From contig NZ_CP107954.1 in assembly GCF_036067295.1 (NCBI RefSeq), positions 4,774,001 to 4,838,000 on the forward strand: a DNA stretch of 64,000 bases, given 5' to 3'. Source of the stretch: Kribbella sp. NBC_00382 (GTDB taxonomy: Bacteria; Actinomycetota; Actinomycetes; Propionibacteriales; Kribbellaceae). Both the position numbers and the translations under genes were made by a program. The first letter of the stretch is position 1. Each line of letters opens with the position of its first letter. Below are positions 29,717 through 43,415 of the stretch, piece after piece. Under the pieces are notes generated by a model. The model was not told the DNA's origin. It saw nothing but the letters and a program-made list of their open reading frames with translations, and made no database searches.

Positions 29717-30643
29717 TTAGTCGGAGGGGATGGCGTCGAGGGTGGCCAGCTCGGAGGGGGTGAGGTGGATGGACCCAGCGGCGACGTTCTCCATCAGGTG
29801 GGTGGGGTTGCCGGTGCCGGGGATCGCTAGGACGTGGGGGCCTTTGGCCAGCGTCCAGGCGATGCGGATCTGAGCGGGCGTCGCGTTGTGGTCAGCGGCG
29901 ATCGCGGCGACCGGGTCGGAGTGGGCTACTCCGCCTTGCTCGCGGCCGGTGGCGGTGACGGCGAAGAACGGTACGAACGCGATTCCCTGCGCGCCACACA
30001 TCTCCAGCATGGCGTCGTTGACGCGGCCGAAGCCGACGCCGTAGCGGTTCTGCACGGCGACCACCGGCGCGATCTCCTGCGCCTGGGCAAGGTGTTCGAC
30101 CCGTATGTTCGACAGGCCGAGGTGCTTGATCAGACCGGCCGCCCGCAACTCGGCCAGTACGCCGAAATGCTCCGCGACCGAATCGAGTCCGGCCTGTCGG
30201 AGGTACACCAGGTCGAGCGTCTCGAGCCCGAGTTGGTGCAGATCGTGTTCGACCAGCGCGCGGAGTTGGTCAGGCCGGGCCAGCCCGTGCTCCGTCGGCC
30301 CGACCTTGGTGGCGATGACGAGCTCGTCGGAGTACGGGGCCAGCGCGCGCCGGACCGCGTCGTTGGCCCACTCGAGACTGTCGAAGCCGTGCTGCTCGCC
30401 GGCTCGCCCGACGGAGGGGTAGAAGCCGGCCGTGTCGAGGTGATTGACGCCGAGGGTGACGGCCTGCCGCAACAACTCGATCGCCTGGTCGGCGCTGCTG
30501 CCGAGGCGCTTGGTGCCGAAGCCGATCCGGTTGACGGCCTGCTCGCCGAGCCGCCAAGCTCCCGCCTGATTCGGAGACTTGCGCTCTGCTTCATCAGATG
30601 CTATGGTTGAGCTTAGATCTGTGTTCACATCTGTTCTATGCAT
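29717..30643 (-). CDS. Aldo/keto reductase
   Basis: This 308-residue (beta/alpha)8 NADPH oxidoreductase has the AKR catalytic set Asp and Tyr in NHLDTAGFYPSV and Lys in VIATKVG. The usual active-site histidine is replaced: LVYLRQAG has arginine where most have YLHR, as in the YdbC-like branch. AIPGTGNPTHLMENVAA near the end binds the cofactor phosphate. Substrate is unknown. The start at 30643 lies in a locally AT-rich leader; later starts would cut the first few variable residues only. It may be regulated by the neighbouring GntR protein. Confidence 0.9.
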   Translation of the reverse strand: MHRTDVNTDLSSTIASDEAERKSPNQAGAWRLGEQAVNRIGFGTKRLGSSADQAIELLRQAVTLGVNHLDTAGFYPSVGRAGEQHGFDSLEWANDAVRRALAPYSDELVIATKVGPTEHGLARPDQLRALVEHDLHQLGLETLDLVYLRQAGLDSVAEHFGVLAELRAAGLIKHLGLSNIRVEHLAQAQEIAPVVAVQNRYGVGFGRVNDAMLEMCGAQGIAFVPFFAVTATGREQGGVAHSDPVAAIAADHNATPAQIRIAWTLAKGPHVLAIPGTGNPTHLMENVAAGSIHLTPSELATLDAIPSD

Positions 30644-30766: not shown

Positions 30767-31111
30767 ATGAATTCGGAGATGGTCGCGGCCGACCCTGGCC
30801 GCCACATGCTCAGTACCTATCGGCACGGCTGGGACGCACAGGGACAGGCCGTCCAGGCGCCGGTCGACTTCCTCGAGCAGGTCGCCGGCTCGCGTGAGTC
30901 GCTGCAGCCGCCGCAGGACGAGGACGCGGCCCGTACGGTCGAGCTGGGCGGTACCGAAGTACTGGTCGCCGCATCCCTGCTCCGGGAGCTGTCCGCGCGC
31001 CTGCGCCACGAGGCCGCCCGTGGTCTGATCAGCCCGGACGCCGAGCAGCTCGCCGCGCTGTCCGACGACCTCGTCGAGCGTTTCTACACCGCCGCCGGCC
31101 TGCGCGGCTGA
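30767..31111 (+). CDS. Small helical protein, first gene of a five-gene cassette, unknown
   Basis: This 114-residue protein is hydrophilic and mostly helical: PVDFLEQVAGSRESLQ, LLRELSARLRHEAARGLI and LAALSDDLVERFYTAAGL. No domain is recognised and there is no signal peptide or membrane segment. It lies 26 bases before the glycosyltransferase gene, and all downstream genes overlap, so it belongs to that unit and may be a regulatory or adaptor subunit. The opposite strand also has an open frame here, but composition and operon order favour the plus strand. Confidence 0.7.
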   Translation: MNSEMVAADPGRHMLSTYRHGWDAQGQAVQAPVDFLEQVAGSRESLQPPQDEDAARTVELGGTEVLVAASLLRELSARLRHEAARGLISPDAEQLAALSDDLVERFYTAAGLRG

Positions 31112-31137
31112 CCGAGATCACCGGAGGAACGAAAAGC

Positions 31138-32472
31138 ATGTCCGATCCCTTCGAGGGACTGCCGAACACTGGTCGCCCGCTGCGCGTACTGGCTCTCGCT
31201 GACAAGTGGTACGGCGGTGGGCCGTTCGCGGTGAACCGTGAGGTCGCCCAGTCGCTGGCCAGGATGGGCCACCAGGTCACCGCCCGGGTCACCACGCCGA
31301 CCGACCCGCACCCGCTGGTCGACATCCAGGTGCTCAAGCCGGTTCCCGGTATCAGCGACACCCGTGCGCAGCTGCTGCGAGCCGACGGCCTGCCGCCGGA
31401 TATCGACGTGATCCTCGGCCACGGGCGGTTCTCCGGTGGCGCGGCGGGCTACCTGCGCGACAACTTCTACCCGAACGCCAAGGTCATCCACTTCATGCAT
31501 GTCACGGCCGACGAGATGGACCGCGGCCGCGGCAACCCGCAGCAGTCCAACGAGCACACCATCACCGAGCGGGCCATCGTCGAGCGGGCCGACCTGGTGG
31601 TCGGCGTCGGGCCGCTGCTGACCGAGGAGGGCCGCCGGCTGGCGCGGATGTGCGAGAAGCCGCCGCCGGTCGTCGAGCTGAAGCCCGGCATGGTGATGGA
31701 GTCCCCGGCCGTTCATGACCCGAACCAGCGGATGAAGAACCTGCTGGTCTTCACTCGTACCGACGACCCGCTGAAGGGCGCCGACATCGCAGCGCGGGCG
31801 GCGGCCGAGTTGCGGGCCCGGGGACTGCAGGTGCAGCTGACAATGCTCGGCGCGCGGTCGGCCGAAGTACCGGAGCAGGAGCGGGCGCTGTCCGACATCG
31901 CCGGGTTCCCGGTCCGGGTGCGCGGCTATACCAAGGACATGAGCGTCATGGCCGCCGAGATCCGGGGTGCGGACCTCGCCATGCACACGGCCCGCTGGGG
32001 TGACTACGAGCTCGCACCGCTCGAGGTGGCCGGCTACCGGGTGCCAGTGATCGTCGGCAACCACACAGGCGTCGGTATGGACCTCAGCGACCCGAACAGC
32101 GTGCCGCAGGGCATCGGTGACGCGGCCGTCGTCGACACCACCGGGCTGTCCCAGGACCAGTACCACCTGGCCTTCGCGGACAAGGCGGAGTGGCACCTGC
32201 GCAACCCGGACGAGTCGAAGGCCTCTGCCAACCGGCTCGGCGACTACTTCGAGCAGAACCGGAGCTGGGACCACGGCACGGCTGGGCTGGTCAAGGAGAT
32301 GGAAAAGCACGGCATGATGCCGGAGCCTGAGCCTGGCCAGCCGATCAAGGGCCCGGCCGACATGAGCCGCTTCCTCGGTACCGGTGGCGCGGTCGATTCG
32401 TCGAAGGGTGACGGTGCCCGGGACAAGCCGGCGACCGTCACGTCCATCGGCCGGCCGACCCTGGAGCGTTGA
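31138..32472 (+). CDS. GT4-like glycosyltransferase
   Basis: This 444-residue protein begins with a GT-B N-terminal fold: RVLALADKWYGGGPFAVNREVAQSLA, a glycine-rich acceptor loop. The C-terminal half has LLVFTRTDDPLKGADIAARAA (the start of the nucleotide-sugar domain) and HTARWGDYELAPLEVAGYRVPVIV, where the ELAPLE segment corresponds to the E-x7-E motif of GT4 enzymes. The end is a hydrophilic tail. It has no membrane segment, so it is cytoplasmic. No sugar-nucleotide synthesis genes are nearby, which makes ordinary surface-glycan assembly unlikely. The TGA shares one base with the ATG of the next gene. Confidence 0.82.
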   Translation: MSDPFEGLPNTGRPLRVLALADKWYGGGPFAVNREVAQSLARMGHQVTARVTTPTDPHPLVDIQVLKPVPGISDTRAQLLRADGLPPDIDVILGHGRFSGGAAGYLRDNFYPNAKVIHFMHVTADEMDRGRGNPQQSNEHTITERAIVERADLVVGVGPLLTEEGRRLARMCEKPPPVVELKPGMVMESPAVHDPNQRMKNLLVFTRTDDPLKGADIAARAAAELRARGLQVQLTMLGARSAEVPEQERALSDIAGFPVRVRGYTKDMSVMAAEIRGADLAMHTARWGDYELAPLEVAGYRVPVIVGNHTGVGMDLSDPNSVPQGIGDAAVVDTTGLSQDQYHLAFADKAEWHLRNPDESKASANRLGDYFEQNRSWDHGTAGLVKEMEKHGMMPEPEPGQPIKGPADMSRFLGTGGAVDSSKGDGARDKPATVTSIGRPTLER

Positions 32473-33845
32473 TGGCGGGCCGCCCATGGGTGCTGGTCGA
32501 CATCGACGGGGTGCTGAACCCGGAGAAGAACCAGGCCGAGCGGGGCTTCACGCCGTACCGGCTGAAGGGTGAGGAGTATCTGGTCTGGCTGCATCCCGAG
32601 CACGGGCGGATGCTGAACGAGCTGGATCGCGAGGGGCTGGTCGACCTCCGCTGGGGGACCACCTGGAACGATGCGGCCAACCGGATGGTCGGTCCGGCGA
32701 TCGGTCTCGACCGGCGCTGGGAGTTCGTCAACATCGACCGGGCTGCGGCTGGGCCGGTGCGGTTCGGCCACAACTGGAAGGCGGTCAGCGTTCGGGAGGG
32801 GGTCGGCGACGAGGCGTTCGCCTGGCTCGACGACGCGATCACTGAGCCGGATCGGTTGTGGGCCGAGGATCGGGTGCTCGACGAGGGCATCCCGACGCTG
32901 CTGATGCCGATCGATCGGAACGTCGGCATGCAGGCCGCGCATCTGGATGAGGTGCGGCATTGGGCTCGGAGTGTGTCCGAGCCGTCGCCGGTCAGTGCTG
33001 AGCAGTTGCTCCGGCGTACGCCGGACCTCGCGGCCGACCCTGTCGCGGTGGAACGGGCGGAGTGGCTGGCCCGGACGGTGGCGGCTTTGCCGGATACGGT
33101 TGCTGCTGGCAACGGGTCGTTGAGTCGTAGTGAGTTGGCGTTGTCTGTCTGGGATCGGACGGCGCATGCGGTCACTGCGGAGTACAAGGCTTCTGATGGT
33201 TCGGGCAAGCCTGTGGACGACTTTGTGCGGCAGTCTCTGCGGCGGTATGTCCGTGGGCAGGGTGATGCGGCGGTGGCGTGGGCGGATCGGGCGGCGCTTC
33301 GTGCTTCGACTCCGCATGCTGGGCATGTGAGGCCGGTGGGTGCGCATGAGCATCGGTTGGTGTTGCCGGCCTCGCCTGGTCGCGAGCACGGGTACCAGGT
33401 ACAGGCGTTGATCGACTCAGCTGCTGCGGTGATCGGTACGAATCCTGACTGGCAGCGGGTGCAGAAGTCCGTACAGGTTGGTGCTGATGGGCCGACGATG
33501 CTGGTCAACTTGCGGGCCGACCGCAAGACCACGTCGACCGGGCTGACCCTTGCCTTCGGCAACGCTGGGGCTGTTGAGCGTCCGTACGAAGACTTGTTGC
33601 GCGGTGGGCCGGAGGCAGCGCTCGAGGCTGTGCGGACGGCGACCGACTACGAGATCGAGCCGCTCGAACAGGTCAAGCACGTCGAGCAAGCAGAGGGTTT
33701 GCGTCTTTCGCCGCTGACCGACCCGGCGTTGCTGCCGCCGGGAGCGGCCCGGCCTGGAACTACCCTGCCGCAGGGGACGCGAGCAGAGAACAGCCGCTGG
33801 ACCGGCACGACCGGCCGGCAGAAGACGACGAGGACGATGGAATGA
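32472..33845 (+). CDS. HAD-like protein of the Swiss-Army-Knife RNA-repair type, with unknown C-terminal region
   Basis: The protein has 457 residues. The N-terminus WVLVDIDGVLNP holds HAD motif I (both aspartates); LVWLHPEHGRMLNEL and LRWGTTWNDAAN follow the pattern of HAD domains found in Swiss-Army-Knife RNA-repair proteins. A lysine-containing motif III may be NWKAVSV, and a late acidic motif is LDDAIT. The remaining 280 residues show no known domain; they contain helical DFVRQSLRRYVRGQGDAAVAWADR and a beta-rich segment. HAD enzymes of this type are thought to remove phosphates from nucleic acid ends. It overlaps both neighbours by one to four bases. Confidence 0.7.
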   Translation: MAGRPWVLVDIDGVLNPEKNQAERGFTPYRLKGEEYLVWLHPEHGRMLNELDREGLVDLRWGTTWNDAANRMVGPAIGLDRRWEFVNIDRAAAGPVRFGHNWKAVSVREGVGDEAFAWLDDAITEPDRLWAEDRVLDEGIPTLLMPIDRNVGMQAAHLDEVRHWARSVSEPSPVSAEQLLRRTPDLAADPVAVERAEWLARTVAALPDTVAAGNGSLSRSELALSVWDRTAHAVTAEYKASDGSGKPVDDFVRQSLRRYVRGQGDAAVAWADRAALRASTPHAGHVRPVGAHEHRLVLPASPGREHGYQVQALIDSAAAVIGTNPDWQRVQKSVQVGADGPTMLVNLRADRKTTSTGLTLAFGNAGAVERPYEDLLRGGPEAALEAVRTATDYEIEPLEQVKHVEQAEGLRLSPLTDPALLPPGAARPGTTLPQGTRAENSRWTGTTGRQKTTRTME

Positions 33846-34555
33846 CTTTCGACCAGCCTGAGCGCAAGAGCCTGGCGCAGCAGTCGGTAGACGACTGGGA
33901 AGCGCTGCGTAGCGTGGGGGAGCTGTTCCCTGGCACCCCACTGGGTGACAGCGCTTCGCAGTTGCCCGCCTGGCCGGAGAACCTCCAGGGCACGCCTGTG
34001 GTGCTTGTTGAGGGCGCCGCGGACGCAGCACTGTACAAGGCGTTGGCTGCTGCTCGGGAACTTGCGCTGGTCGTCACTGACGACGTTGCCGCTGCTCGCG
34101 CATCACTGAACGAGTTGGGGCGCCAGGACGTCAAGGTAGCAGCGGAGGCTTCAGCGGTTGCTGACGTACCCGGTGAGGGGCCGGTGCGCTGGATCGGGGC
34201 TGGGCGAAACACCAGCCCGCTGGCGAGCCTGCTGGACTCGGAGGTCGCCGGGCGACTGCGGGTCACCCAGTTGCAGGTCGACGGGGGTGCGGGGCCGGTA
34301 CTGGAGGCTGCAGCGGCTGGGCGGTTGAAGCTGGATCTTGTCAGCCCCAACCCGGACGATGGAGAGCTTGGGCCGGCAGTGGTGGTCGCTGCTGCGCTTG
34401 CGCTGCCATTCGTCGACTTCAGGCAGGTACCGGTCGGCGTGGACGGCCATGGCCGGTTCCAGCCGCAGCAGGGCGGTGTCGTCCTGTGGTGGGGCGTGAG
34501 TACCGAGGCTGGGGCGCTGCAGGCCTGGCTGGACCGAGTTGACGGCGGTAGGTGA
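33842..34555 (+). CDS. Uncharacterised cassette protein
   Basis: This 237-residue protein, alanine- and valine-rich but soluble, has TPVVLVEGAADAALYKALAA, vaguely like the first strand and acidic residue of a TOPRIM or Rossmann unit, then AVVVAAALALPFVDF. No conserved catalytic set is obvious. ATGA overlap with the HAD gene and GTGA overlap with the next gene show it is translated as part of the same unit. I would not assign a function. Confidence 0.65.
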   Translation: MTFDQPERKSLAQQSVDDWEALRSVGELFPGTPLGDSASQLPAWPENLQGTPVVLVEGAADAALYKALAAARELALVVTDDVAAARASLNELGRQDVKVAAEASAVADVPGEGPVRWIGAGRNTSPLASLLDSEVAGRLRVTQLQVDGGAGPVLEAAAAGRLKLDLVSPNPDDGELGPAVVVAAALALPFVDFRQVPVGVDGHGRFQPQQGGVVLWWGVSTEAGALQAWLDRVDGGR

Positions 34556-35856
34556 CCGTGGCCATCGAACAAGAGCTGCCACCGCTGGCGGCCATCAGTG
34601 ACGCGTACGGGCTGAAGGACAAGGCCGACCGGGATGCGGTCGAGCGGATCTACAACGCCTTCCGCGCCCACCACGCACGCTTCGTCACCTCGATCGCCCG
34701 CGACATGCTGCGCGACCTTCGCCAGGAGGTGGCGGCCAACCCGCACACCCGGGTGGTCTTCCTCGGCCGGGACGGCTACAGCCTCGCCGTGGCGGCCCGG
34801 ACACTCGATCCCGAGTTCTTCTCGGCGCACTGCCATGACGCTGTCCTGTCCCGGGCGGTCGCGGAGGCCGCAGTACAGGACCTGGAGCAGAACGGTGGGA
34901 AGTCCTTCCCCGACATCGCCGGGTACCGGGAGAACACGGCCAGTGTGTCGGCAGAGGACGTCTCCGGGTCGTATCAGCAGCTCACCCGGTACCTGCGTGG
35001 CGCCGGCGTCCCGGTCGGTACGCCGGGCAGCCGGGTCGTACTGATGGACAGCTGTCTCAAGGGGACCGTGCAGGAGCTCCTGTCGTCGGCATACCCGGAG
35101 ACGAAGTTCGAGGGCCGGTACATGTTCTACGACGGCATCGCGTCGGACCCGCACCCGGGGACGAAGCGGGGCTACGTGCTGCACCGTGACGATGGCATCG
35201 GCGGCGGCATGAAGGAGCTGCCGCGGGACCCGTCCCTGACGTTCGCCAGCCTCGCGGCCATCCGGACGATCGAGAACTCGCTGCAGGGGCCGCTGAGCAG
35301 TCCGAAGGCTCTCGACGAGTCAGGCCCGGTGCAGCGCCGCCTCACCGAGGAGCAGGACCGTACCTTCGGCTGCAACCCGGTACTGGTCGATCCGCCGTAC
35401 CTGAACCCGGCCGTCCGCGAGGCGTGCAAGGTGGCCGGCCTGCGGGCCGTGATGGACGCGGCAGCCGACGTACGGGACGGGGCACCGCTGGACACCGAGG
35501 CGGTGCAGCAGCAGTTCACCAACGACGTCCGTGCCTGGCTCACCCACGCCCCGGGCCAGGACCCCGAGCTGAAGGTCCTCCTGGACAGCTTCGTCCACCG
35601 CGACGACCACCGAATGGTCCGCCAGGTCGACAAGATGCTCCACGAGAGCTCCCTGACCCCAGAGGCCCACCACCAGGTCTGGCAAAGCTTCGAGGTAGCC
35701 CAAACCCTCCAGGAGAAGCAGGCCGTACTAGCAAACGTCCAGGTCCTGACCCAGCAACCCAAGCCACAAACCGCCGCCGACACCTCTGCGTCCCAGCAAG
35801 CCACCCAGCAGGCCGACCGCAGTCGCCGCCCAGGCCAGTCCTTCGAGGTCGGCTGA
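34552..35856 (+). CDS. FLGRDG-type HAD-like protein, last gene of the cassette
   Basis: This 434-residue protein has HTRVVFLGRDGYSLAVAARTL (about residues 64-84), followed by SRVVLMDSCLKGTVQELL. The pair FLxRDG plus D-x-G/C-x-x-G-T-x-Q is seen in HAD-related proteins of polysaccharide clusters of many bacteria. The C-terminal third is helical and charged, ending in a Gln-rich tail (QQATQQADRSRRPGQ). It starts with a GTG overlapping the previous stop by four bases. Whether it is a phosphatase, a phosphotransferase or a non-catalytic partner is unknown. The leftward tRNA-Arg lies 57 bases downstream. Confidence 0.68.
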   Translation: MTVAIEQELPPLAAISDAYGLKDKADRDAVERIYNAFRAHHARFVTSIARDMLRDLRQEVAANPHTRVVFLGRDGYSLAVAARTLDPEFFSAHCHDAVLSRAVAEAAVQDLEQNGGKSFPDIAGYRENTASVSAEDVSGSYQQLTRYLRGAGVPVGTPGSRVVLMDSCLKGTVQELLSSAYPETKFEGRYMFYDGIASDPHPGTKRGYVLHRDDGIGGGMKELPRDPSLTFASLAAIRTIENSLQGPLSSPKALDESGPVQRRLTEEQDRTFGCNPVLVDPPYLNPAVREACKVAGLRAVMDAAADVRDGAPLDTEAVQQQFTNDVRAWLTHAPGQDPELKVLLDSFVHRDDHRMVRQVDKMLHESSLTPEAHHQVWQSFEVAQTLQEKQAVLANVQVLTQQPKPQTAADTSASQQATQQADRSRRPGQSFEVG

Positions 35857-37956: not shown

Positions 37957-40900
37957 GTGGCTGACACCAGGCCAGCTGGTGAGGGTTCGGAGCGTTCGGG
38001 AGAGCCGAAGGTTCCGGCCCAGGATCAGCCTGTCTCCGAACTGGCCCGGCTGATCGCCGAATCCGATGCCAAAGGCAAAGGTTTCTGGCGCCGCCGCAAA
38101 CGCAAGTCCGCCGGTACGACCGCCGCGCCGACCCTCCAGGCCGAGCCCCCGGCGCCCGCCGCCACAAAGTCCTCCACGGCATCGGCTCCCGAGCAACCGC
38201 CGGCCAACCAGCCGCCGGCCGACGAATCGACGCCCGAGAACCCAACGACCGACGAATCGACGGCCGCGAACCCGACGGCCGACGAACTGGCGGTCGACAA
38301 GCCGACGGCCGACGCTGCGACAGGCGCTGAGCCCGGGTCCGAGAAGGCCGAAGGCGACAAGGTCACCGATCCCGCCGCCGACAAGCCCGCGGACGCCCCC
38401 GCCGACCTGACGACCGAGAAGTCCGCCGATCCCGCAACCGACGCCCCAACCGAAGCTGACGCGCCGACCGAAGCTGTCGATTCGACGACCGAACCTGTCG
38501 AGTCGACGGACGCACAGCCGACCAACGGCGTAATGGCGACCGACGATGCACAGGCGACGGACGGCGTACGGGCGACCGATGGAGTACGGGCGACCGACGG
38601 CGATCAGCCGGCCGCGGAGAAGCCGGCCGACGACCAGCCGGCAACCCAGCCGCCATCCGAGGTACCGACAACCGACGTATCCGCCGCCTCGTCCCCTGAG
38701 GAACCCACCGATGCACACCAGTCTGCCGACCCCGAGCCCGCTACCGCGGTGACCCTGACGGCAGAGCAAGAGGCCTCCCGCCCCAAGGTTGGCATCGTCT
38801 ACGAGCCGGATGAGTCAGCCGAAGGCTTCCCCCTCGAATACGGCGACATCATTATCGGCCTGCCCAAACAACCAGGCGCCCCCGAAGACCCCGCAGCCCT
38901 CCACGCCGAAGCAGAAGCCGAACTAGCCGCAGTCACCGCCGCCGAAGCCGAAGCAGACCCCGAGATCGACTCCCACTCGACCGAGCCTGTAGCCGAGTCC
39001 GAAGCTGCCCCAGAAGCGGAAGCCGAAGCTGGCCCCGAGTCGGAGGCCGAAGCTGCCCCCGAGTCGGAAGCCGAAGCCGACCCCCAGCCGGAAGCCGAAG
39101 GTGGCCCCGAGGCGGACGCCGAGTCCAAGCAGGATGCCGAAGCGGCCGACCCATCTCCGGCCGACCAGCCGTCCGACGCATCCCCGGTCGAGCCCGCCTC
39201 CGACGAGGCCGCCGGCGCCGACTCCGACGGGCCGGACTCCATGTCCGACTCCACCGAGCCCGACTCCGAGGTACCCGGCGAGCGCGAGCCCGCAGCCGAC
39301 GGCGCGGCTGGGCAGAACGCCGAAGCTGCCGACGAGCCTTCGCCCGAGTCCGACGCCGAGGCTCCCACCGAGACCGACGCTGCCGCCGACCAGGATGGTC
39401 CAGCTAAGGCAGACGACGAGCCTGAACAGGACGCTGAACCCGCCGACGAGCCTTCGCCCGAGTCCGACGCCGAGATTCCCACCGAGACCGACGCTGCCGG
39501 CGACAACGCCGCCGAGGCCAGCGCGACGTCAGGTGCTGTAGAAGAAGACTCGGAGTCCACCGGCGAGGCGGACACCGAGGGCGAGCCGACCGCTGAAGCT
39601 GAGGCGGAACCGACCACCGAGGCCGACGCCGACGCTAGTGCCGTCACCGGCTCCAGCGCGCAGACCGAGAACGCCTCCGACACCACGGCCGATGGCGACG
39701 CCACCACCGACCCGGAGGCCAACTCCGACGCTGAGACCGGCCCGGACGGCGATACCGACGCTGGTACCGACGCCGATGCTGGTGCGGACGCCATCGTCGG
39801 CGCGAGTGCTGCGGCTGACGCCAGCTCCGAGGGTGACGCCAGCTCCGAAGGCGACGCTGCCAACGCCGACTCCGTACCCGACGCTGACTCCGACGCCACC
39901 GCCGAATCGGGGGACGGAGCGGACTCTGGTGCCGCCGCTGACTCCGAGGGCGCTGACTCCGCCGCCGATTCCGACGCCGCCGAGTCCGGTGCCGGCGTTA
40001 CGGATGCGGTGGAGGCGCGGGAGAAGTCTGCGGAGGAGGTGGCTACTGAGCAGGCGGCTATGGCCTTGATTACCGCGTTGATGAAGTTGCGCGGCGCCTT
40101 GGCTGCTAGTCGGTTGCCTATTGATGTGGTGGGGGCTGATGAGGCTCGCCAGCAGCAGAAGGCGATGTTGGATCAGCTTGATGACTATGTGCTGCCGCGA
40201 CTGGTGCAGCTCGAGGCGCCGGTACTGGCAGTGGTCGGCGGTTCGACCGGTGCCGGCAAGTCGACGCTTGTCAACAGTTTGATCGGGCAGGTCGTCAGCG
40301 AGCCCGGCGTACTGCGGCCGACCACCCGCTCCCCAGTCCTGATCCACCACCCGGCCGACGCCGACTGGTTCACCAACGACCGGGTACTGCCGGACATGGC
40401 GCGCTCCAGCGGTGACAGCCCGGGTGGGATGGAGGATCCCGGGCAGATCCGCTTGGTTGCCGCCGACACCATTCCGCAGGGCCTGGCCATCCTCGACGCG
40501 CCCGACATCGACTCGGTCGTCGAGGCCAACCGTGACCTCGCCACTCAGTTGCTGGCGGCTGCCGACCTCTGGCTGTTCGTCACCACCGCCGCCCGGTACG
40601 CCGATGCGGTCCCGTGGGAGTTCCTGCAGAGCGCCTCGGATCGCAGTACTGCGGTAGCCGTCGTCCTCGACCGCGCCCCCGCAGACACGATCGACGACAT
40701 CACTGGCCACCTGGCCCAGATGCTCCTCGAACGCGGACTCGGCGACTCGCCGCTGTTCAGCATCAAGGAGACCGTTGTCGACGGCAACGGAATGCTGGCC
40801 AGCGATGTAGTTGCCTCGATCAAGGACTGGCTGATCGACCTCGCCGCCGACGCCGAGGCGCGATCGGCCGTCGTACGGCGAACTCTGCAAGGCGCCGTCA

Positions 40901-41754
40901 CCGCGATGACCAAGAAGACGCCCCCGTTCGCCAAGGCCGTCAGGGCACAGGCCGACACACTCGTCGATCTGCGGTCGACCGCGGAAACGGCGTACGACCA
41001 AGCCGTCAAGGACATCGCCAAGGCGACCCAGGACGGCACCATGATGCGCGGCGAGGTGCTTGCCCGCTGGCAGGAGTTCGTCGGTACCGGCGAGCTGCTC
41101 AAGGGTCTGCAGACCAACGTCGGCCGCCTCCGCGACAAGGTCCGTACTGCGGTAGTCGGCGACCCACCGCCGACGCGTGACCTCAAGGACGCCGTCGAGT
41201 CGGGCCTGGAGTCCCTGCTGCGTGAGCACGCTGCGGCGGCTGCCGAGCGCGCCGAAGCGGCGTGGCAGTCGACGGCTCCTGGTCGCCAACTGCTCGCGGC
41301 CGGCGATCCCGCGATGGGTGGGATGTCCGAGGAGTTCCCGGCCGCGGCGGGTCTCGCAGTACGCGAGTGGCAGGAGTCCGTGTTCGAGCTGATTCGCGAA
41401 GAGGGCGCCGACAAGCGCAGCACGGCGCGGATCCTTGCCTATGGCGTCAATGGGCTCGGGCTGGCCCTGATGGTCACCGTCTTCGCCAGCGCTGCGGCAG
41501 TACCGGCCGGCGCGAAGGCCGCGACCGGAACCGGTACCGCCGTCGTCGGGCAGAAGTTGCTGGCGGCAGTCTTCGGCGAAGAGGCGGTCCGCGGCCTGGC
41601 CGCCAGGGCGCGGGACGACCTTGACGCTAGAGTTCATGCTTTGATGGATGCGGAATTCGCCCGCTACCTGGCTGTGCTCGACCAGCATCCGGTCGATCCC
41701 GATGCACCCAGGCAATTGACGGAGGCCGCGCGCGCGGTGGAGGACTGCACGTGA
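37957..41754 (+). CDS. Dynamin-like GTPase with giant acidic N-terminal region
   Basis: The protein has 1265 residues from the GTG at 37957. Residues about 60-685 are low-complexity, rich in Asp, Glu, Ala, Pro, Ser and Thr, with short repeats (DGVRATDGVRATDG; DEPSPESDAEAP twice) and almost no basic residues. The last 570 residues form the GTPase: P-loop VVGGSTGAGKSTLVNSLIG, switch region RPTTRSPVLIH, G3-like LAILDAPDIDS and G4-like VVLDRAPAD. A helical stalk and a hydrophobic pair (GLGLALMVTVFASAAAVPAGAK) near the end fit membrane association. It overlaps the next GTPase gene by four bases; such pairs resemble dynamin-like partners in actinobacteria. Septum or membrane remodelling is inferred. 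Confidence 0.82.
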   Translation: MADTRPAGEGSERSGEPKVPAQDQPVSELARLIAESDAKGKGFWRRRKRKSAGTTAAPTLQAEPPAPAATKSSTASAPEQPPANQPPADESTPENPTTDESTAANPTADELAVDKPTADAATGAEPGSEKAEGDKVTDPAADKPADAPADLTTEKSADPATDAPTEADAPTEAVDSTTEPVESTDAQPTNGVMATDDAQATDGVRATDGVRATDGDQPAAEKPADDQPATQPPSEVPTTDVSAASSPEEPTDAHQSADPEPATAVTLTAEQEASRPKVGIVYEPDESAEGFPLEYGDIIIGLPKQPGAPEDPAALHAEAEAELAAVTAAEAEADPEIDSHSTEPVAESEAAPEAEAEAGPESEAEAAPESEAEADPQPEAEGGPEADAESKQDAEAADPSPADQPSDASPVEPASDEAAGADSDGPDSMSDSTEPDSEVPGEREPAADGAAGQNAEAADEPSPESDAEAPTETDAAADQDGPAKADDEPEQDAEPADEPSPESDAEIPTETDAAGDNAAEASATSGAVEEDSESTGEADTEGEPTAEAEAEPTTEADADASAVTGSSAQTENASDTTADGDATTDPEANSDAETGPDGDTDAGTDADAGADAIVGASAAADASSEGDASSEGDAANADSVPDADSDATAESGDGADSGAAADSEGADSAADSDAAESGAGVTDAVEAREKSAEEVATEQAAMALITALMKLRGALAASRLPIDVVGADEARQQQKAMLDQLDDYVLPRLVQLEAPVLAVVGGSTGAGKSTLVNSLIGQVVSEPGVLRPTTRSPVLIHHPADADWFTNDRVLPDMARSSGDSPGGMEDPGQIRLVAADTIPQGLAILDAPDIDSVVEANRDLATQLLAAADLWLFVTTAARYADAVPWEFLQSASDRSTAVAVVLDRAPADTIDDITGHLAQMLLERGLGDSPLFSIKETVVDGNGMLASDVVASIKDWLIDLAADAEARSAVVRRTLQGAVTAMTKKTPPFAKAVRAQADTLVDLRSTAETAYDQAVKDIAKATQDGTMMRGEVLARWQEFVGTGELLKGLQTNVGRLRDKVRTAVVGDPPPTRDLKDAVESGLESLLREHAAAAAERAEAAWQSTAPGRQLLAAGDPAMGGMSEEFPAAAGLAVREWQESVFELIREEGADKRSTARILAYGVNGLGLALMVTVFASAAAVPAGAKAATGTGTAVVGQKLLAAVFGEEAVRGLAARARDDLDARVHALMDAEFARYLAVLDQHPVDPDAPRQLTEAARAVEDCT

Positions 41755-43415
41755 CGGGAACTGTGGATACGGTCAAGGGCCTCGCGAGGGGCGCTACCGA
41801 TGTCCTGACGAAGATCGAGGCAGTCGAGGACGCCGCCGCGGCCGGCCGGGGACGGCTGGACCAGGTGGTCCTGAGTGAGGCTTCGCAGATCGTGGACCGG
41901 GCCAGTCAGCGGCTCAGGATGTCCGGCGATCTGACAGTCGTGGCCCTGGCCGGCGCGACCGGTTCGGGCAAGTCGTCGCTGTTCAACGCGCTGACCGGGC
42001 TGGACCTGGCCGCGATCGGGACCCGGCGGCCGACCAGCTCGATGCCGCTGGCCTGTGTGTGGGGCGAGGAGCCCGCCGGTGAGCTACTGAACTGGCTGGG
42101 CATCCCACGCCGGCACCAGGTGCAGCACCGCAGCTCGCTCGAGGACGCGCACTCCGAGGACCTCGACGGGCTGGTCCTGCTGGACCTGCCTGACCACGAT
42201 TCCACCGAGGTCGAGCACCGGCTCATCGTCGACCGGCTGGTCGAGCTGGTCGACGTACTGGTGTGGGTGGTCGATCCGCAGAAGTACGCCGATGCTGCGC
42301 TGCACAACCGGTACATCAAGCCGTTCGCCTCGCACTCGTCGGTGATGGTGTTCGCGTTGAACCACGCCGACAAGCTCACCGACGCCCAGCGCGAGAGCTG
42401 CCTCGCCGACCTCACCCGGCTGCTCAAGTCGGACGGCCTGAAGAACCCGCAGCTCGTGGCGACCTCTGCCATGAGCGGCGACGGACTGGACGACCTGCGC
42501 GACCTGCTGGTCAAGCGGGTCAGCGCGAAGCGGGCTGCACGCGAGCGACTGGCTGCAGACGTGGACCGCGTTGCGGACCGGATGGCTAGCCAGTGCGGCA
42601 ACGCCAAGACGCCGGAGATCGCCCAGGCGGACATCACTGAGCTAGTGGACGCACTGTCGGACGCTAGCGGCCTACCGGTTGTTGTCGAGGCAGTACGCCG
42701 GTCCTACCTGCAGCGGGCGACTGCTGCGACCGGGTGGCCGGTCACCAAGTGGCTTGCTCGCTTCCGGCCGGATCCCTTGCGGCGCTTGCATCTGGACCAG
42801 GTGCCGCGTCAACAGGGCAAGGCGTTGCGGAAGTCGGCCTCCAACGAGGTGTCGATCGCCCGCTCTTCGTTGCCCGCGGCAACGCCGGTGCAGCGCGCCC
42901 GGATGGACACTGCCGTCCGCACGATCACCAACAAGGCCGCAGCCGGGCTGTCCCGCCCCTGGGCCGATTCAGTCCGTACTGCGATCCGCCGGCGCGAGGA
43001 GTCCCTCGGCGACGAGCTGGACCAGGCAGTGGCTCGTACTGACCTCGGCGCGAACAACAACCCGGGCTGGTGGGCGGCTGCGCGGTTCCTGCAGTGGCTA
43101 CTGGTCCTGGTTGCGCTGGGCGGGGCCGTGTGGCTGGTGCTCGCCGCCTTCCTCGACGACCTGACGCTGCCTGAGTGGCAGGGCATCCCGTACGCGACGA
43201 TGATGCTGGTTGGCGGGGCGATCCTTGGGATCGGTCTAGCGATCGCCTGCCGCCTCTTCGCCACCAGCGGCGCCAACCGTCGGGCTCGCCTGGTAGCCAA
43301 GGCGCTCCGCACCGAGCTGGAGAAGGTTGCTGACAGCCACGTTGTCGCCCCGGCTCGCGAGGAGCTCGACGCCTACACCGTCTGCCGCGACAAGCTGGCC
43401 ATCGCCCGCGGCTAG
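41751..43415 (+). CDS. Second dynamin-like/YfjP-type GTPase with C-terminal membrane anchor
   Basis: This 554-residue GTPase has clear G motifs: G1 LAGATGSGKSSLFNAL, G2-like threonine in RRPTSS, G3 DLPDHDS and G4 FALNHADKL. A helical middle follows, and then two transmembrane helices (FLQWLLVLVALGGAVWLVLAAFL and ATMMLVGGAILGIGLAIACRLF) with a short helical C-terminus. It starts with GTG inside the stop of the preceding GTPase gene. The two proteins probably work as a heteromeric pair at the membrane, as known for actinobacterial dynamin-like pairs; this role is inferred from order and domain content. Confidence 0.85.
   Translation: MTGTVDTVKGLARGATDVLTKIEAVEDAAAAGRGRLDQVVLSEASQIVDRASQRLRMSGDLTVVALAGATGSGKSSLFNALTGLDLAAIGTRRPTSSMPLACVWGEEPAGELLNWLGIPRRHQVQHRSSLEDAHSEDLDGLVLLDLPDHDSTEVEHRLIVDRLVELVDVLVWVVDPQKYADAALHNRYIKPFASHSSVMVFALNHADKLTDAQRESCLADLTRLLKSDGLKNPQLVATSAMSGDGLDDLRDLLVKRVSAKRAARERLAADVDRVADRMASQCGNAKTPEIAQADITELVDALSDASGLPVVVEAVRRSYLQRATAATGWPVTKWLARFRPDPLRRLHLDQVPRQQGKALRKSASNEVSIARSSLPAATPVQRARMDTAVRTITNKAAAGLSRPWADSVRTAIRRREESLGDELDQAVARTDLGANNNPGWWAAARFLQWLLVLVALGGAVWLVLAAFLDDLTLPEWQGIPYATMMLVGGAILGIGLAIACRLFATSGANRRARLVAKALRTELEKVADSHVVAPAREELDAYTVCRDKLAIARG

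Follow-up and report, generated by a model that had tools for sequence, protein, structure and literature searches.

Which pathway is encoded by five tightly packed genes that lie beside a tRNA-Arg gene in the genome of Kribbella sp. NBC_00382? We analyzed this cassette within a stretch of 64,000 nucleotides (the window), positions 4,774,001-4,838,000 of the single 8.49-Mb contig NZ_CP107954.1, and propose that its genes, denoted g1 to g5, probably encode a two-step pathway for O-ribosylation in the cytoplasm, which would include the transfer of a further sugar and a riboside-binding partner without catalytic activity. The genes are listed here in window coordinates:

30767-31111, + strand: g1, open reading frame (ORF) for a small protein of 114 amino acids (described as helical in the first-pass annotation of this DNA) without an assigned family; accessory protein or possible acceptor
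31138-32472, + strand: g2, homologue of GT4 glycosyltransferases, Pfam family PF20706 (GT4-conflict)
32472-33845, + strand: g3, N-terminal HAD domain (residues ~1-170) followed by a C-terminal region without an assigned family
33842-34555, + strand: g4, nucleoside hydrolase (IUNH) homologue without catalytic motifs
34552-35856, + strand: g5, phosphoribosyltransferase (PRTase)-fold protein by model, with a GTG start; proposed gPRT/CriT-like ribofuranosyltransferase dependent on phosphoribosyl pyrophosphate (PRPP)

Organization and conservation of the cassette

The analysis confirmed the five genes and their coupling as given in the first-pass annotation: consecutive genes are spaced by +26, -1, -4 and -4 bases, with g3 starting at an ATG (the listed ORF begins at a TTG 3 bases upstream). 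The coupling is more than chance because complete sets, with the order and strand of all five genes kept, are present in four Micromonospora genomes, and because the ratio of nonsynonymous to synonymous substitution rates (dN/dS) is below 1 for every within-genus pair tested: 0.33-0.59 for g1, 0.05-0.25 for g2, 0.23-0.32 for g3, 0.22-0.24 for g5, and, for g4, 0.12 (with dS near saturation) and 0.39-0.63. In Micromonospora, where we re-called the gene starts, the successive spacings are 84-141, then -4 or +29, then -4, then -4 to +5 bases. Identity between the window and Micromonospora is 46-53% for g1, 61-62% for g2, 53-54% for g3, 43-45% for g4 and 53-54% for g5. Altogether, five complete cassettes are known from two genera, Kribbella and Micromonospora, along with two partial ones, and the neighborhood survey for co-conservation that had been suggested for this locus found the five genes kept together.

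The proposed ribosylation pathway

In the pathway that we propose, g5 would move 5-phosphoribosyl from PRPP onto a hydroxyl of the acceptor, and the HAD domain of g3 would then strip the 5-phosphate; g2 would add a further sugar, either before or after the ribose; g4 would act as a non-catalytic riboside-binding partner of g5; and g1, a small protein, would have an accessory role or might even be the acceptor. The order of the steps, the roles of g1 and g4, and the acceptor are tentative assignments. We read the cassette as a ribosylation unit because known enzymes combine a gPRT and a HAD domain in two steps, and because Cj1432 of Campylobacter jejuni joins GT4, HAD and ribosyltransferase parts in the order of g2, g3 and g5. 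In the known ribofuranosyltransferases, as outlined in PMC11127046 and PMC11231755, the gPRT domain adds ribose-5-phosphate from PRPP and the HAD domain removes the phosphate. Cj1432, as described in PMC12096443, carries a GT4, a HAD phosphatase and a PRPP-dependent ribosyltransferase in one chain, that is, the same three activities that we propose here. However, Cj1432 is a single capsule-building polypeptide, whereas the cassette consists of separate coupled genes, includes the nucleoside hydrolase homologue and g1, and was not seen in a capsule locus; the likeness of Cj1432 to g5 is only at the fold level of the enzyme class.

The systems in which O-ribosylation from PRPP was worked out are bacterial capsules and O antigens, as described in PMC10299916, PMC11127046, PMC11231755 and PMC12096443. 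If the proposed pathway is real, the cassette is a compact, mobile version of this chemistry outside a recognizable glycan locus, which would hint at ribosylated molecules for which no one has yet searched.

A predicted PRTase fold in g5

Searches of Pfam, NCBIfam, PADLOC and PHROGs did not assign g5 convincingly to any family, and a search against PDB sequences at E values up to 10 yielded only a sortase, at 0.77. The best AlphaFold (AF2) model, built from a 5-row alignment (predicted local distance difference test score, pLDDT, 69.4; predicted template modelling score, pTM, 0.69), has a PRTase-like core with added helical bundles, the architecture that defines gPRT and CriT domains. In VIA-align, this model matches Bcs3 of Haemophilus influenzae type b (8a0c_B, Z 18.5, 298 residues aligned, root-mean-square deviation (rmsd) 6.0; 8a0m_A, Z 18.4, 264 residues, rmsd 4.4) and the ribofuranosyltransferase of T. 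composti (7shg_B, Z 17.6, 271 residues, rmsd 4.2). After these ribofuranosyltransferases, the matches continue with PRTases, of which PyrR is the first, at Z 8.0. Foldseek alone gave E values of 3e-3 to 0.18 for the same three structures, none below 0.001.

The aligned part of Bcs3 (631-1022) falls inside the CriT domain, which, according to the account in PMC10299916, moves ribose-5-phosphate from PRPP and lines the PRPP site with S678-R679-D680, S707-R708 and E818..T825, as well as R712. The plausible equivalents in g5, set by order and spacing rather than by superposition, are the following (conservation over 15 rows):

34759-34776, + strand: g5 loop 1, FLGRDG (R73, D74), proposed equivalent of CriT R679/D680; G72-G75 at least 90% conserved
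34849-34854, + strand: g5 loop 2, S100-R101, proposed equivalent of CriT S707/R708; invariant
35047-35067, + strand: g5 loop 3, D166..T172, proposed equivalent of CriT E818..T825 (5-phosphate loop); D166 and G171 invariant, T172 nearly so

In loop 1, G72-R73-D74 of g5 would correspond to S678-R679-D680, with Gly in place of the CriT Ser. D74 and R101 of g5 are separated by 27 residues, compared to 28 for D680 and R708 of CriT, and the distance from the acid to the threonine is 6 compared to 7. By its model, then, g5 appears to be a PRTase-fold ribosyltransferase, presumably using PRPP, and not the HAD-like protein proposed earlier on the strength of the FLGRDG motif, which is present.

Bcs3 (CriT and CrpP domains; 8a0c, 8a0m) and 7shg resemble the proposed system in the fold of g5, in the HAD partner and in the order of the proposed PRPP-site motifs, but gave no match to g5 in sequence searches; furthermore, of the two Asp residues of DxD, CrpP has just the first, as described in PMC10299916, whereas g3 has both. 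The gPRT and PRP domains of Klebsiella O4 and O7 share the logic of transfer followed by dephosphorylation but, in the accounts of PMC11231755 and PMC11127046, belong to two-domain enzymes of O-antigen synthesis.

A nucleoside hydrolase homologue without catalytic motifs

The connection of g4 to nucleoside hydrolases was first made by a tblastn match in a Kribbella locus (L021; E 2.7e-4). Profile-profile comparison (hhalign) of six cassette g4 proteins with seven motif-intact hydrolases gave a probability of 99.9 and an E value of 5.7e-36, and a mixed profile of g4 and hydrolases retrieves solved ribonucleoside hydrolases; the homology extends over the nucleoside hydrolase (PF01156) fold. Pfam itself did not recognize PF01156 in the g4 proteins tried, those of the window, L046, L072 and L073.

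None of the 6 distinct cassette g4 proteins (8 rows, in which L075 and L076 repeat L074 and L072) has a DTDxGGDxDD or an EHN motif, whereas, among 21 hydrolase partners outside the cassette, scored by pattern searches over the whole of the matching open frames, DTDxGGDxDD was detected in 20 (not in L031), and EHN and QHD in all 21. Three cassette rows (L073, L074 and L075) contain a QHD string, which sits elsewhere in the protein; at the aligned place, the His is replaced in all 6 and the Asp in 4 (L073 and L074 retain it). Of DTD, only the first Asp is left in the Micromonospora copies, and Kribbella g4, at 237 residues compared to ~330-345, is about 100 residues shorter than the hydrolases. 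As judged from its sequence, g4 is a nucleoside hydrolase homologue that lacks the active-site motifs, and may serve as a riboside-binding, non-catalytic partner of g5. It is a clear-cut example of an enzyme that seems to have become a non-catalytic partner. The cassette g4 proteins form one clade in the tree (100/99), as do the cassette g5 proteins (100/100), consistent with a single ancestral loss of the g4 motifs. Of the two proteins that could not be placed in the first-pass annotation, g4 has gained a family and g1 is still without one.

A weak Pfam match of g4 to OLD-like TOPRIM domains (E 0.2) was rejected, as the Glu of VEG is lost in the Kribbella genome G014.

The glycosyltransferase homologue, the HAD protein and g1

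The g2 protein matches the GT4-conflict model over its full length (305 bits, E 1e-90, model positions 1-385 of 385, over the cut-off), and three further GT4 models match over their cut-offs, which bears out the GT4 part of the earlier claim of a cytoplasmic GT4-like transferase. The GT4-conflict model has 10 other matches in the window's genome, of at most 71.9 bits, and matches in all 14 control genomes, so that the score of g2 counts rather than the family name. NCBIfam gave a weak MshA match (21.7 bits against a cut-off of 462.5). R207 and K213 of g2 are kept. On these sequence comparisons, g2 is classed as a GT4 homologue, with uncertain activity.

The VDIDGVLNP and WGTTWNDAAN motifs that had suggested a SAK-type HAD protein are present in g3. 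Against HAD_SAK_2 (PF18143), the window's protein scores 21.2 bits, under the Pfam cut-off of 27.5, and its orthologue in the Micromonospora locus L046 scores 31.4, over it; the earlier reading of a SAK-type HAD domain holds to that extent. Within residues 1-207, an AF2 model of g3 (pLDDT 66.3; 3 rows) resembles MDP-1 at Z 10.2 and Scp1 at Z 9.9. D10xD12, T63/T64, K103 and D120/D121 are invariant in 7 rows and, in our reading, represent motifs I-IV, so that both a HAD fold and its motif residues are found in g3. Matches to g3, the majority of them to the HAD part, are present in 33 of 61 Micromonospora genomes, and the full-length protein in only 4.

No match to g1 was found in Pfam, NCBIfam, PADLOC or PHROGs. 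Its orthologues are 46-67% identical in one same-genus and four Micromonospora loci, and the invariant residues include Ser16, Thr17 and Ser42 (6 rows).

Evidence against the proposed pathway

Several observations weigh against the proposed ribosylation pathway. No sequence profile search links g5 to Bcs3 or 7shg; only one of the five g5 models is good, the other four having pLDDT of 55.2-39.2, all from the same 5-row alignment; and CriT R712 falls on E105 in g5. The g3 model comes from 3 rows, with the other models at pLDDT 51.1-39.4, and its HAD domain resembles MDP-1 and Scp1, the phosphatase domains of CrpP and T. composti being absent among the matches listed. In both Kribbella copies of g2 (the window and G001), the first Glu of E-x7-E is replaced by Gly (GDYELAPLE), which makes its activity uncertain there; a complete E-x7-E is common among active GT4 enzymes but is not a homology test, and the motif Glu is retained in all four Micromonospora copies (EDFGLAPLE). 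G014 has no cassette-type g2 at E values up to 1e-30, so that either g2 is not obligatory or the G014 copy is a remnant. Finally, no tra gene was found near the three Kribbella cassettes (the window, L020 and L022). The weightiest of these points are the lone good g5 model, the lack of a sequence link, a HAD domain without demonstrated closeness to CrpP, the altered g2 motif and the absence of a cassette-type g2 from G014.

Distribution

With g5 as the query, 17 of 58 genomes match (the window's own counted), all within Kribbella, and, in the stretches fetched from these 17, cassette genes beyond the window were found only in G014 and G001. G014 (locus L020) carries g3-g4-g5; just upstream of g3, at the place expected for g1 and g2, are GrpB, RidA-type (Ribonuc_L-PSP) and PTP-SAK-like genes (L020:12152-13473). 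G001 (locus L022) carries g1-g2 and shortened g3 and g5 genes, without g4; at L022:15000-16507, the two shortened genes look as if joined by a deletion, through either decay or an assembly error.

The g3 profile matches 13 of 38 Kribbella genomes at E values up to 1e-20; the match spans most of the protein in three of these (G000, G014 and the shortened G001), and about the first 170-215 positions in the remaining ones. In Micromonospora, 4 of 61 genomes match over most of g3, and all four hold all five genes. In a class-wide sample, the g5 profile matched 7 of 394 genomes, including that of the window; one of the seven, G245 (Micromonospora), has all five genes in order. At E values up to 1e-40, the g3 profile matched one of 150 genomes of Micromonospora's family (G245) and one of 396 genomes of the phylum (G000). 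Because the class-wide g5 and phylum g3 samples were scored on the best 4 first-look candidates per genome, and the family g3 sample on the best 11, rare copies may be missed in these counts. A contig scan with a single-protein query found no loci, and one with an alignment query found at least 5.

No g5 relatives were found in phage records (tblastn) or viral contigs (pattern-based search), no g2 relatives in viral contigs, and no plasmid match for g4 (tblastn); g3 matches 37 plasmid records, none of which covers more than 80% of its length.

Genomic setting and proposed mobility

The cassette occupies a variable slot with the following borders:

29717-30643, - strand: aldo/keto reductase gene, Pfam PF00248
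35914-35990, - strand: tRNA-Arg (TCT), 57 bases past g5, its 3' end facing the cassette

The tRNA-Arg border had been recognized in the first-pass annotation. The tRNA-Arg and PrsW genes occur together in all 10 Kribbella genomes fetched (out of 36 others with the gene), and the opposite side varies: the reductase was found in 3 of the 10; G004 has it at 472 bases from the tRNA-Arg, without a cassette; in G026, a zeta-toxin gene (L083:7282-8454) occupies the same slot; and, in G036, a 358-residue protein without a Pfam match does. The cassette genes of G000, G001 and G014 lie in unrelated surroundings. A search for attachment-site repeats of the tRNA end yielded none (the best candidate has 17 bases at 88%) and so lends no support to integration at this tRNA by site-specific recombination.

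In all four Micromonospora loci, a TraG/TraD-like coupling gene and a DUF4913 gene lie upstream of the cassette; in the other three, these are 92-96% and 80-90% identical, respectively, to those of L046. Relatives of the coupling protein are encoded on L036 (47%) and L077 (36%), each with a g5-hydrolase pair; L020, L022, L037 and the window yielded none. In the best reading, the cassette moves from genome to genome, with conjugation genes alongside it in Micromonospora. Directly after g5, all four Micromonospora loci have a NUDIX gene (L046:10334-10876); the window, L020 and L022 showed no such gene. Beyond the NUDIX gene in L046, on the opposite strand, are an ABC ATPase gene and a gene for a 621-residue protein without a Pfam match.

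The G+C content of the cassette is similar to that of its surroundings. At third codon positions, it is lower in the second half of g3 (0.71) and in g4 (0.75) than in the rest of the cassette (0.86-0.90), and is 0.72 in the neighboring reductase. An RNA-family scan of the region found only the tRNA; the leader structure is unremarkable (z 0.17); no sigma-70-like promoter was found for the cassette; and there are 5 terminator-like sites compared to 1.5 expected, none clearly positioned for the operon.

Alternative roles

The same enzymes might instead form an anti-invader (conflict) module that glycosylates and ribosylates a target in the invader or in the host when phages or plasmids attack, with g1 or g4 as a possible sensor, but we consider this unlikely. 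In its favor, g2 is a full-length member of the GT4-conflict family, and GT4 domains are proposed as effectors in several conflict systems in the account of PMC8195603, with glycosyltransferase and HAD domains mentioned for conflict systems in PMC7159879. The cassette is patchily distributed and adjoined by conjugation genes in Micromonospora; a zeta-toxin gene sits in the same slot in G026; and g5 relatives are joined to ADP-ribosyltransferase (L078) or Scabin-like/Gln_amidase (L051) domains or, in a distant case (L049), adjoin a STAND-type regulator gene. However, none of the five proteins has a PADLOC match (library of 2023); no STAND-type partner was found among the scanned window neighbors or cassette flanks, no other conflict partner was seen beside g2 and no fused domain was recognized in it; and, with the GT4-conflict model matching all 14 control genomes, the name alone proves little. 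The stress or defence module suggested in the first-pass annotation keeps its footing in the GT4 family, the conjugation-gene context and the toxin-linked relatives, but finds none in PADLOC.

It is likewise doubtful that the cassette is a small specialized-metabolite pathway for a soluble riboside-carrying glycoside. The butirosin (BtrL/BtrP) and neomycin-type ribosylation steps use a GT4, a PRPP transferase and a phosphatase on a small pseudo-oligosaccharide. No aminoglycoside genes were seen near the cassette. The weak MshA match of g2 fits a small-molecule GT4, and the NUDIX gene after g5 in Micromonospora points the same way, but no cyclitol or aminotransferase gene was found among the scanned neighbors and the unit has just five genes. 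Because the conflict and metabolite explanations are roles for the same chemistry, their odds overlap with those of the ribosylation pathway. Our literature search found nothing on point for GT4-conflict, HAD_SAK_2, butirosin/ribostamycin ribosylation, or a nucleoside hydrolase pseudoenzyme combined with PRPP.

Decoration of a surface or wall glycan, as by the known gPRT/PRP enzymes, is rather improbable. The characterized fold relatives of g5 described above act on capsules or O antigens, and the ABC ATPase and the 621-residue protein of L046 could be taken to fit, but decoration of this kind is less likely because the machinery was not seen among the neighbors scanned: the ten in the window include no polymerase, flippase, exporter or nucleotide-sugar gene, and only a sugar-importer permease and binding protein, in line with the first-pass annotation. 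The genes also lie in unrelated places in G000, G001 and G014 and by tra genes in Micromonospora. Homologues inside polysaccharide or antibiotic clusters, the finding that would have placed the cassette in such a pathway, were not seen among the ten Micromonospora flank genes scanned in three loci; one of these genes encodes the ABC ATPase.

We also give little credence to a mobile, self-contained protein- or metabolite-ribosylation system in which g1, with its invariant Ser16, Thr17 and Ser42, would be the acceptor decorated by g2, g5 and g3, g4 would be a ribose-holding subunit of the transferase, and the mark would protect the carrier element or arm it against invaders.

RNA or nucleotide repair, suggested from the SAK-type HAD domain, is very improbable: HAD_SAK_2 is the closest Pfam model for g3 and a PTP-SAK-like gene (Pfam E 4.6e-7) lies ~1 kb upstream of g3 in G014, but no ligase, kinase, nuclease or RNA-binding domain was recognized in the five proteins, and the g3 matches in 33 of 61 Micromonospora genomes are mostly to the HAD part. 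Within the modification and repair pathway that had been envisaged, modification of a small molecule or macromolecule is supported, and nucleic-acid repair has no decisive support. Nucleoside salvage, with g4 as an active hydrolase feeding g5, draws on the homology of g4 and on its motif-intact relatives elsewhere, but can hardly be reconciled with 6 of 6 distinct cassette g4 proteins lacking both DTDxGGDxDD and EHN and the replacements at the QHD place.

Loci of the g5 family outside the cassette

A nucleoside hydrolase gene is present in 21 of 24 non-cassette g5 loci (none was seen in L049, L050 and L079), and L030 fuses the hydrolase to the g5-family protein; two loci with a g5-family gene and a hydrolase are on plasmids. 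None of the 24 has a g3-type or g1-type match, and the only g2-type match is a weak one (L047, 1.8e-13). The PRTase-fold transferase and the nucleoside hydrolase, live or dead, make up a family with a testable partnership.

In the Kribbella loci L021 and L023-L035, the g5-family gene overlaps, adjoins or is fused to a motif-intact nucleoside hydrolase gene, near ABC transporter and TetR genes, an arrangement that many Kribbella genomes have; several copies (L028, L033, L034 and L035) are broken. In Nocardia seriolae (L078:1-4308), an ORF joins a g5-like domain with ADP-ribosyltransferase-type domains; 2-2.5 kb downstream of it lies a hydrolase gene. In G297 (L051:9131-13981), g5-like pieces are part of a large ORF with Scabin-like and Gln_amidase domains that adjoins a nucleoside hydrolase gene. 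The distant g5 relative of G171 (L049:7207-13311) adjoins a regulator gene of the BTAD/NB-ARC/TPR (STAND) type, near an HTH/IrrE-type gene, and no hydrolase was seen there.

Downstream of PrsW in the window (37957-43415) are two large adjoining genes, for proteins of 1265 and 550 amino acids, the second with a Dynamin_N match (E 2.4e-7).

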